A stretch of 64,000 nucleotides of DNA from Pseudodesulfovibrio sp. zrk46. GTDB lineage: Bacteria > Desulfobacterota > Desulfovibrionia > Desulfovibrionales > Desulfovibrionaceae. The notes below the pieces were generated by a model that had not been told where the DNA came from, did no database searches, and saw only the letters and a program-made list of their open reading frames with translations. Positions 19,241-44,587 of the stretch are shown in pieces. The position numbers and the translations under genes are program-made. The stretch covers positions 3,409,669 through 3,473,668 of the forward strand of contig NZ_CP051216.1 of NCBI RefSeq assembly GCF_012516435.1, given 5' to 3'. Within the stretch, counting starts at the first letter, position 1. Every line of letters starts with the position of its first letter.

Positions 19241-20407
19241 ATGTCTGATTTCAAGCTTGCCGACCGTCTTTCTACGCTGCCCCCATACCTTTTTGCAGCC
19301 ATCGATAAGGCCAAGGCCGAAGTTGCCGCCCAGGGAATGGACATCATTAGCCTTGGCATCGGCGATCCTGATCTGCCGACCCCGGATTTCATCATAGACG
19401 CCCTGTACGAAGGTGCCAAGAAATCCGTTAACCATCAGTATCCTTCATATGTAGGTATGATGTCTTACCGTCAAGCTGTTGCCGATTGGTACAAACAACG
19501 CTTTAACGTGGACCTCAACGCCGAAACGGAGGTCGTTAGCCTGATCGGATCGAAAGAAGGCATCGCTCACTTCCCACTGGCGTATATAAATCCTGGCGAC
19601 CTGGCTCTCATCGCCACTCCTAATTACCCGGTATACGGTATCGCCACTAGCTTTGCCGGCGGTGAAGTAGAGTACCTGCCGCTGCTAGAAGAAAATGACT
19701 TTCTTGTCGACCTGGATGCTATTTCCGACGACACCTGGGCCAAGGCAAAAATGATTTTCGTCTGCTATCCGAACAACCCAACAGCAGCGACCGCCACCAA
19801 AGACTTTTACGATCGTCTGATTGAAAAGGCAAAAGAGTTCAACGTAATAGTTGTCTCCGACGCCGCATACACTGAAATATACTACGATCCGTCCAACAAG
19901 CCCATTTCCATCTTGGAATGCGAAGGAGCCAAGGACGTATGCATTGAGTTCCACTCACTGTCCAAAACTTACAATATGACCGGATGGCGTATTGGAATGG
20001 CTGTGGGAAACAAAGACCTCATCGCAGGGCTTGGCAAGATCAAGGAAAACGTAGATTCTGGTATCTTCCAGGCCGTTCAGGAAGCTGGAATTGCTGCACT
20101 CCAGAAGGGAGAACCGTACGCCGAGAAATTTCGCGCAATCTACAAGGAGCGCCGAGACGTTGTTTCCGCCGCACTGACCAAAGTAGGCATCAAACACCGT
20201 GTTCCGGACGCTGCTTTCTATATGTGGTGCAACACTCCCGAAGGATACACCTCGTCCGAATTTGTCACCAACGTCCTGAAACAGACAGGCGTCGTGCTGA
20301 CTCCCGGCCAGGGCTTCGGGGCCCCCGGGGAAGGCTATTTCCGCATTTCCCTGACCGTTAATAACGATCTGCTCGAGGAGGCGGTATCCAGGATATCGAA
20401 ACTGTAA
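19241..20407 (+). CDS. dapL: LL-diaminopimelate aminotransferase
   Basis: DapL converts tetrahydrodipicolinate directly to LL-diaminopimelate with glutamate as amino donor. The 388-residue class I aminotransferase begins MSDFKLADRLSTLPPYLFA and has SLGIGDPDLPTPDFI, the PLP lysine in SLSKTYNMTGWRIG and GQGFGAPGEGYFRIS at the C-terminus, typical of the DapL group. The ATG at 19241 follows AAGGAG by ten bases; the open frame reaches back to 19133 with no similarity. It has its own promoter. Its TAA stop overlaps what should be the folK start (see folK). lysA, a later enzyme of the pathway, is also in the window. Confidence 0.94.
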   Translation: MSDFKLADRLSTLPPYLFAAIDKAKAEVAAQGMDIISLGIGDPDLPTPDFIIDALYEGAKKSVNHQYPSYVGMMSYRQAVADWYKQRFNVDLNAETEVVSLIGSKEGIAHFPLAYINPGDLALIATPNYPVYGIATSFAGGEVEYLPLLEENDFLVDLDAISDDTWAKAKMIFVCYPNNPTAATATKDFYDRLIEKAKEFNVIVVSDAAYTEIYYDPSNKPISILECEGAKDVCIEFHSLSKTYNMTGWRIGMAVGNKDLIAGLGKIKENVDSGIFQAVQEAGIAALQKGEPYAEKFRAIYKERRDVVSAALTKVGIKHRVPDAAFYMWCNTPEGYTSSEFVTNVLKQTGVVLTPGQGFGAPGEGYFRISLTVNNDLLEEAVSRISKL

Positions 20408-20904
20408 ACTGCTACGTCAGTCTCGGTTCCAACCAGGGCGACCCCGAAGAGAACCTGAACTACGCACTGACGTTGTTAGAAGAATATGGCGACGAGATAA
20501 CTCTGAAATCGTTTTCGCACACTTACCTGACTGAGCCTCAAGGGGAGATTAAAGATCAACCCTGGTTCACAAACCAGATAATCAAGCTGGAAATCGATGC
20601 AGAGATTTGGGCTCCTTCGGGATTCCTGTCTACCTGCACTGCTATTGAGGCCAAAATGGGGCGTCAAAGGCAGGAGCCAGGTGGCCCTAGGCCTTTGGAT
20701 ATGGATATCATTGCATGGGGTGACTTAGAGTTGGAAAGCGATTTCCTGACCCTGCCACACCCGCGCGCAAAAGAAAGGGCATTTGTCCTCATACCACTGA
20801 AAGAAGTAGAACCAGACTTCGTCTTTCCCGACGGAACACATATTGATGAGGCACTTAATGCCATCGATTACCGCATGGAAGACAATAAGATTTGGCAAGA
20901 TTAA
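20404..20904 (+). CDS. folK: 2-amino-4-hydroxy-6-hydroxymethyldihydropteridine pyrophosphokinase, start codon lost
   Basis: FolK transfers pyrophosphate from ATP to the hydroxymethyl pterin in folate synthesis. The frame has YVSLGSNQGDPEENL at its start, GRQRQEPGGPRPLDMDII in the catalytic loop and LPHPRAKERAFVLIPL after it, all diagnostic. The conserved N-terminus has no ATG, GTG or TTG: the frame closes at a double TAA at 20359-20364 and the first TTG is at 20473, which would remove the core strand. Codon 20404-20406 is GTA and overlaps the dapL stop TAA (20405-20407); a GTGA overlap would have given GTG. CAGGA at 20389-20393 is well spaced for 20404. Coordinates assume initiation there (166 aa). 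Confidence 0.85.
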   Translation, partial: VNCYVSLGSNQGDPEENLNYALTLLEEYGDEITLKSFSHTYLTEPQGEIKDQPWFTNQIIKLEIDAEIWAPSGFLSTCTAIEAKMGRQRQEPGGPRPLDMDIIAWGDLELESDFLTLPHPRAKERAFVLIPLKEVEPDFVFPDGTHIDEALNAIDYRMEDNKIWQD

Positions 20905-24594: not shown

Positions 24595-24681
24595 TGGTGC
24601 CGAGGGGGGGATTCGAACCCCCACGGAATTTCTTCCACTGCCCCCTCAAGACAGCGTGTCTACCAATTCCACCACCTCGGC
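24595..24681 (-). tRNA. tRNA-Leu (anticodon GAG), copy 1
   Basis: An 87-nt tRNA with encoded CCA. The acceptor stem pairs GCCGAGG with CCTCGGC. The D-arm has GGAATTGGTAGAC, the anticodon stem-loop is CTGTC-TTGAGGG-GGCAG (anticodon GAG at loop positions 3-5), then a long variable arm as in type II tRNAs and TTCGAAT in the T loop. It decodes CUC and CUU. It is identical to the copy at 25095-25181. It has its own terminator and a possible promoter. Confidence 0.97.
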
Positions 24682-25094: not shown

Positions 25095-25181
25095 TGGTGC
25101 CGAGGGGGGGATTCGAACCCCCACGGAATTTCTTCCACTGCCCCCTCAAGACAGCGTGTCTACCAATTCCACCACCTCGGC
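25095..25181 (-). tRNA. tRNA-Leu (anticodon GAG), copy 2
   Basis: Identical over its full 87 nt to copy 1, exactly 500 bp away, and with the last four bases 3' of the CCA also shared. Its 5' end is only 15 bases from the secG stop, so it is probably processed out of the secG message. The secG-tRNA-Leu(GAG) neighbour relation is also known in E. coli (secG-leuU). Confidence 0.97.
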
Positions 25182-43450: not shown

Positions 43451-43527
43451 GGCGAGGTAGCTCAGTTGGTTAGAGCATGCGGCTCATATCCGCAGAGTCG
43501 GAGGTTCAAGTCCTCTCCTCGCTACCA
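43451..43527 (+). tRNA. tRNA with anticodon CAT (elongator tRNA-Met most likely)
   Basis: A 77-nt tRNA with encoded CCA. The anticodon arm is TGCGG-CTCATAT-CCGCA (anticodon CAT), the D-arm GCTCAGTTGGTTAGAGC and the T loop TTCAAGT. Pair 1-72 is G-U. It lacks the unpaired C1-A72 and the GGG/CCC anticodon stem of the initiator. tRNA-Ile2 (the CAT tRNA modified by TilS) is the alternative; identity cannot be fixed from sequence alone. Confidence 0.93.
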
Positions 43528-44203: not shown

Positions 44204-44587
44204 GGGGGCGCATTGGTTTCGACGGGGATAGTTGATGCCAAGGCTGCAAGTCGAGGTTGGTCGATGGCCTCGTAAAAATCGACCAAAAGATAATTGCAAA
44301 CGACAATTACGACTACGCAATGGCTGCTTAATTGCAGAGTTGCACCTTGACACACTAGATGTCACGATTCTCCCGCTGACGCCTTATAAGCGGACAGGAT
44401 CGTCAATTCATAGGGCTAGTTTCGACGGTCTGTTCTTTGCCACCGAAGCGAAAACAAAGAAGGACTAGTCCAACGGCCGTCTGGCCCGGAGCAATCCGTT
44501 GGGTGAATTTTTATTCCGGACCTAAACTTGTAGACGCTTTGCGCTGATCGTTCTCGGACGGGAGTTCGACTCTCCCCGCCTCCACCA
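44204..44587 (+). ncRNA. ssrA: transfer-messenger RNA (tmRNA)
   Basis: tmRNA frees stalled ribosomes and tags the peptide. The 384-nt RNA starts GGGGGCG and ends CGCCTCC-ACCA, forming the acceptor stem with the usual third G-U pair; GTTTCGACGGGGA and a TTCGACT T-loop are present. The tag frame at 44296-44331 reads ANDNYDYAMAA then TAA, a normal proteolysis tag. Pseudoknot-like repeats fill the middle. CCA is encoded. A strong hairpin follows. Confidence 0.97.

Follow-up and report, generated by a model that had tools for sequence, protein, structure and literature searches.

Where does translation of folK begin in Pseudodesulfovibrio sp. zrk46? The question is raised by the window, a stretch of 64,000 nucleotides (positions 3,409,669 to 3,473,668 of contig NZ_CP051216.1). 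In it, a dapL-like aminotransferase gene on the plus strand (nt 19241–20407, Pfam Aminotran_1_2) is followed by folK, which sits in the −1 frame relative to it. The product of the upstream gene was named LL-diaminopimelate aminotransferase (dapL) in a sequence-only reading of this DNA. The folK frame is open from nt 20365 to 20904. It is preceded by a double stop, TAA TAA (nt 20359–20364), which excludes starts farther upstream. The first ATG, GTG or TTG in the frame is TTG 20473. The sequence-only reading had claimed a missing start on this ground, and the claim holds; the positions it gave for the double stop, two in-frame ATC codons, a GTA codon, the dapL stop and TTG 20473 all agree with the sequence.

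The folK frame encodes a complete domain. Its match to Pfam HPPK (PF01288) scores 108.6 bits against a gathering score of 25.7 and covers positions 1–116 of 116. Position 1 of HPPK aligns to residue 17 of the open frame, the Tyr encoded at nt 20413, which is the first residue of the FolK N-terminal motif YVSLGSN (nt 20413–20433). TTG 20473 was rejected as the start, as it would cut the first 20 residues off the HPPK domain. The genome is a single contig of 4,082,342 bases with one HPPK match, so that the genome-wide search for another folK, proposed in the sequence-only reading, returned no second copy. The genome also harbors a folP-type pterin-binding gene (309-codon frame), and a frame of 819 codons gives a second pterin-binding match. 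Purifying selection acts on folK: median dN/dS is 0.138 for the 211 of 465 genus pairs whose dS is below 2, and across all 465 pairs the median pN/pS is 0.223. HPPK is present in 108 of the 118 relatives searched. Genomes G011, G013, G316 and G322 have a second HPPK match (L002, L003, L202 and L210) in open frames of 494 to 986 codons, and in G011 and G013, which are members of the genus, this match outscores the dapL-linked folK. A tblastn search against plasmids gave FolK matches that are all below 60% identity.

Several signals precede the motif. We count folK codons backward from the motif Tyr, so that codon −9 is ATC (nt 20386–20388), codon −6 is a second in-frame ATC (nt 20395–20397) and codon −3 is GTA (nt 20404–20406), which overlaps the dapL stop TAA (nt 20405–20407). 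A Shine-Dalgarno sequence, AGGAGG (nt 20376–20381), lies within dapL codons 379–381 (Glu-Glu-Ala). It is separated from ATC 20386 by a 4-nt spacer (nt 20382–20385), which holds the dapL Ala381 wobble, and it lies 22 nt upstream of GTA 20404. The A of ATC 20386 is the dapL Val382 wobble, and the codon after this ATC is CAG. If ATC 20386 is read as Met, folK extends over nt 20386–20904 including the stop and encodes 172 residues. RNA folding of nt 20351–20430 shows nothing unusual (z 0.19).

The dapL-folK junctions of relatives were aligned, a check that the sequence-only reading had suggested, and the missing start proved to be common to most of them. From 234 loci, 8 were dropped because they did not fit the motif pattern and 18 as duplicate junctions, leaving 208. 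A dapL homologue lies at most 400 nt upstream of folK in 110 of these, and in 91 of the 110 its stop is exactly 5 nt ahead of the motif. Junctions with the dapL stop 2–11 nt ahead of the motif were taken as overlap junctions; 94 are distinct. L125, from another phylum, was left out of the 94, as were L378 and L381, and L377, L379, L380 and L382 gave no pattern match. L125 (Candidatus Calescamantes, JAGGYA010000019.1) itself carries a dapL-folK pair with a 5-nt stop-to-motif distance, GTA at codon −3 and TTG at codon −11.

A canonical start, meaning ATG, GTG or TTG in codons −14 to 0 unless stated otherwise, is lacking in 82 of the 94 overlap junctions, and in 79 of the 91 junctions with the 5-nt distance. 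In 61 of the 82, the frame is free of canonical starts as far back as the preceding in-frame stop; in the other 21, they occur only within dapL, 62 to 226 codons upstream. In contrast, 95 of the 98 folK loci not adjoining dapL have a canonical start within 25 codons. Within the genus, the junction is present in 32 of 36 genomes, the four misses being genomes that are 81–87% complete. Of the 32, 21 lack a canonical start anywhere between the preceding in-frame stop and the motif, and one more (L035) has canonical starts only at least 62 codons upstream, so that 22 lack one within 14 codons of the motif. Nine have GTG three codons ahead of YVSLGSN, and one has ATG two codons ahead. Other genomes of the genus and other genera of the family share the absence, which is therefore not due to chance. 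Three loci (L065, L069 and L265) have folK 118–257 nt past dapL, with TTG or GTG candidates only at least 24 codons upstream; by eye, L069 has a hairpin-like repeat between the two genes. In L224, 267 nt separate the end of the dapL frame from the folK motif while the junction GGAGGC GGT GTT ACG is intact, which suggests a dapL frameshift or an assembly error.

The codon that these junctions share is codon −9. An in-frame ATC, GTC or GTT is carried by 92 of the 94 overlap junctions (ATC 66, GTC 13, GTT 13). Between the end of GGAGG and the scored codon there are exactly 4 nt in 85 of the 92, 7 nt in three, and 1 nt in four, for which scoring began at an additional codon in front. These four are the reason that the counts differ from those of the aligned codon −9, which is ATC in 63, GTC in 15, GTT in 9 and GGC in one of the 88 aligned junctions. 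The alignment used 88 of 90, the remaining two being without a near-full dapL. ATC 20395 was rejected as a conserved start, as codon −6 is TTC in 12 of the 32 genus members and ATC in 20 (dapL Ile ATT and ATA, respectively). Codon −3 is GTA in 58, GTG in 10, CTA in 10, ATA in 9 and TTA in one of the 88.

Some dapL-folK overlaps, comprising the same two genes with the same overlap, differ in having a canonical GTG or ATG at the dapL stop. In L022 and L070, the two junctions of the 94 without a near-cognate codon, GTG is found in both (Fisher p 0.015, for sequences that are not independent). L378, which has a TAATG overlap and an ATG start, has also lost the near-cognate codon. Yet ten genus members retain ATC at codon −9 although they have a GTG or ATG at the dapL stop; among the 94 junctions, 10 combine a near-cognate codon with a GTG or ATG near the dapL stop and could start at either. 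By these sequences, the near-cognate and canonical start types are not strictly exclusive.

The dapL gene carries a record of the same signals. In the 32 genus dapL genes, the Val382 wobble, which is the first base of the candidate start, is A in every case, the only invariant site among 112 fourfold sites; parsimony gives 0 changes against a mean of 8.3. Other conserved dapL Val codons have at least 6 third-base changes each, and 12.5% of Val codons are GTA. Codons 379 and 380, the final bases of which complete the Shine-Dalgarno sequence, show 0 third-base changes, against a mean of 5.85 and a minimum of 2 for 13 other invariant Glu codons. The Ala381 wobble in the spacer varies freely, with 7 changes in the genus. 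The seven codons from Val382 accumulate 17 third-base changes against a mean of 50.3, the lowest of 382 such runs, the next lowest elsewhere having 25. When runs of five codons are compared, the last one in dapL, with 15 changes against a mean of 35.9, comes only fifth from the bottom of 384, and another run has 15 as well. Counts for codon runs, Glu codons and codons 379 and 380 are from 31 genus taxa, L061 being dropped as a duplicate. Leaving the Shine-Dalgarno bases aside, the ATC is thus where low synonymous change sets in, which is what a folK coding region starting at this codon would produce.

Across the family, all 88 sequences have a purine at the Val382 wobble, though the residue is V, L or A, whereas purine/pyrimidine changes at 99 other fourfold sites average 14 with a minimum of 3. 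Counting all changes, the site has 5, no fewer than the lowest of the 99 others (mean 22.5), which also has 5. In 34 genomes in which folK is not expected beside dapL, the relatives of zrk46 dapL among the matches listed are at most 41% identical to it, so that these genomes offer no close folK-free dapL for comparison.

The same arrangement persists away from dapL. Four loci of genus label g25 have folK without a dapL match in the fetched stretch, and each carries GGAGG or AAGGAG followed by GTC/ATT (L204), ATC (L206), ATC (L209) or GTT (L211). Reading back to the preceding in-frame stop, no canonical start occurs in L204 or L211; in L206 and L209, in-frame canonical candidates lie at least 25 codons upstream, hence these two are not deciding. 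In a sister family, folK of L026 and L027 lies 105–106 nt from dapL and has ATG ACG at codons −9 and −8, whereas two overlapping folK genes of that family (L031 and L381) have GTC ACG. The comparison points to a start at codon −9, with ACG as the second codon.

The best explanation of these data is that FolK is translated from the near-cognate ATC 20386, in the manner of infC and of Streptomyces sigR, and we hold this to be very probable. At the sequence level, the locus combines the lack of a usable canonical start nearby, a strong Shine-Dalgarno sequence and a codon conserved beyond expectation with low synonymous change in dapL, purifying selection on folK and persistence in two dapL-free relatives. 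The sequence-only reading had listed this ATC among several non-standard options, and in that part it was very probably right, given the conserved codon and Shine-Dalgarno sequence in relatives.

Other explanations account for less. An error of sequencing or assembly, or a dying pseudogene, has in its favor that one base change would give GTG at 20404, and the sequence-only reading had accordingly offered a sequencing error or a single G-to-A loss of a GTGA stop/start overlap. However, the site is conserved and the start is missing in 22 of 32 genus genomes and 82 of 94 junctions; folK has a low dN/dS, and it is the sole folK found in a genome that also has a folP-type gene. On the sequences of the relatives this explanation is already refuted, and we give it practically no weight. 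The GTGA overlap does exist, in 9 of the 32 genus relatives, but its loss here is not supported: GTA with TAA is the commonest state (58 of 88). GTG at codon −3 is confined to one genus cluster, with one GTA member inside it, and one distant relative, L022, and therefore looks derived. A more serious alternative is a start at GTA 20404 by termination-reinitiation, in which dapL ribosomes at the TAA step back one base onto GTR. GTR is indeed found at codon −3 in 30 of 31 genus members (21 GTA, 9 GTG), the stop is held at exactly 5 nt from the motif in most linked loci, and the wobbles of Lys387 and Leu388 are also nearly fixed, with 1 change each. Against this, codon −3 is not kept as a start across the family, being ATA, CTA or TTA in 20 of the 88, and since CTA and TTA are implausible as starts, it is not the shared start. 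The Shine-Dalgarno sequence lies 22 nt upstream of GTA, the invariance of the wobble bases of Val382 and of codons 379 and 380 is left unexplained, GTG is just one change away (TAA to TGA) yet is found in only 10 of the 88, and L211 and L204 have folK without dapL nearby. We regard initiation at GTA as unlikely.

Two further alternatives are less probable still. ACG, the codon after codon −9, could be the start in the relatives with GTC or GTT, with the ATC start special to other lineages. This would fit the presence of ACG after GTC or GTT in 24 of 24 cases and after ATC in just 23 of 63, and its 7-nt spacing from GGAGG. But zrk46 has CAG there, so that ACG cannot account for zrk46, the ATG ACG of L026 and L027 makes ACG a second codon, and sigR uses GTC or GTT; we consider an ACG start very unlikely. 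A DapL-FolK fusion through −1 frameshifting near the dapL end, the shift that the sequence-only reading had raised, agrees with the frame of folK relative to dapL and with the Shine-Dalgarno-like element upstream. A slippery heptamer of the form X XXY YYZ, sought in phase over the stretch that begins at the final stop of the folK frame, or 45 nt upstream, and ends at the dapL stop, was found in 0 of the 94 junctions. Moreover, a folK-frame stop lies directly ahead of GGAGG in 12 of 32 genus members, leaving little room for a shift, and the element is kept in folK genes without dapL nearby. We find such a fusion hardly credible.

Initiation at ATC 20386 would then proceed as follows. The ribosome-binding site and the folK start would sit within the last dapL codons, in the other frame, and the ordinary CAU initiator tRNA would read AUC 20386 as formyl-methionine, probably aided by the strong AGGAGG four bases upstream. 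Two features speak against such initiation: the pairing of AUC with CAU has a mismatch at the third base, and weak third-base pairs gave extremely little product in vitro (PMC10158994); in addition, a Shine-Dalgarno spacing of 4 nt is on the short side. Relatives would use ATC, GTC or GTT at the same codon. A change to ATG or GTG is probably hard, since the third base of the start also serves as the middle base of Ser383, a conserved dapL codon. The start is expected to be weak and may be restrained by IF3, as are those of infC and sigR. A weak folK start would fit the finding that IF3 disfavours weak third-base pairs, as described in PMC10158994.

Near-cognate initiation is very probably already in use in the genus, at infC. 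In infC of zrk46 (L225:1444-1446; G000:C1:2868966-2868968) there is no ATG, GTG or TTG before the conserved region, and its start appears to be ATA; the gene overlaps the end of the preceding one, presumably thrS. ATA follows GGAGG in 26 of 30 genus infC loci (23, plus three of the remaining seven), and four are not settled by the pattern; five of the 23 also have a nearby in-frame ATG or TTG. FolK resembles infC in having a near-cognate start (ATT, ATC or ATA in infC) after a strong GGAGG and in overlapping the upstream gene. According to PMC5472188, infC starts at ATT in E. coli, whereas Streptomyces uses ATC. The two genes differ in that feedback through IF3 itself is known for infC (PMC5472188), while there is no known reason for IF3 control of folK.

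The parallel with sigR is closer in the start codon. In the part of Feeney et al. 2017 (PMC5472188) available, sigR starts with GTC in 32 of 34 Streptomyces species and with GTT in 2 of 34, after AGGAGGTG. Its start was proved by stop-codon replacement, is repressed by IF3 and had been misannotated by gene finders. In both sigR and folK, a purine-U-C/U start is fixed across species with a strong Shine-Dalgarno sequence (AGGAGGTG in sigR) just upstream. They differ in that sigR is a regulator and folK a folate enzyme, folK uses mostly ATC, and the folK start is embedded in the upstream gene in another frame. The sigR start also has mutational and IF3 evidence behind it, whereas that of folK is proposed from sequence. 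In E. coli infC fidelity mutants, other non-canonical starts are reported to gain 3- to 15-fold (PMC5472188). Literature searches on folK or dapL in Desulfovibrio, on AUC, ATC and GTC starts and on proteogenomics gave no report of a near-cognate folK start among the matches listed, as judged by titles and the beginnings of abstracts. In the portion available, a Desulfovibrio vulgaris study mentions no alternative starts besides TTG and GTG (PMC3219674), and the available portions of PMC5622118, PMC11497404 and PMC11445065 contain nothing on AUC or GUC starts.

From these junctions, a near-cognate folK start is predicted for at least 19 of the family's genus labels. Annotations limited to ATG, GTG and TTG are therefore likely to misplace or lose folK, and we expect it to be truncated or absent in them. 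If the ATC start is true, a metabolic enzyme with a near-cognate start would widen the small documented class of infC and sigR. A further gene with a conserved near-cognate start is pcnB. The locus would also show how a non-standard start can become fixed through overlapping frames, and would offer a test case, far from Streptomyces, for IF3 control of further genes.

Why the start would stay weak is a separate matter. It is possible, though we think it improbable, that the weak start is kept by selection for weakness, and that folK across Desulfovibrionaceae is throttled by initiation fidelity, that is, by the IF3 level and the initiator tRNA. The hints are that the near-cognate codon persists in the dapL-free L204 and L211 and that GTG, one change away, has been taken in just 10 of 88. 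Folate is the source of the formyl group of the initiator tRNA, so such throttling would link folate synthesis with the condition of the initiation machinery.

Five CAU tRNAs were found in the genome. Two identical copies at L330 are of initiator type, and no other initiator was noted in a scan that was incomplete and inspected only the CAU tRNAs for initiator features. The genome has 67 RF00005 matches, and no tRNA-Ile(GAU) or tRNA-Ala(UGC) is among the ARAGORN genes; perhaps, as a guess, stretches of the rRNA operons are missing or masked, which would account for this. A CAU tRNA at nt 43451–43527, whose ends are not of initiator type, lies upstream of a tmRNA (nt 44204–44587) with the tag ANDNYDYAMAA. 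Two tRNA-Leu(GAG) genes are located on the minus strand about 400 bases apart, at nt 24595–24681 and 25095–25181.
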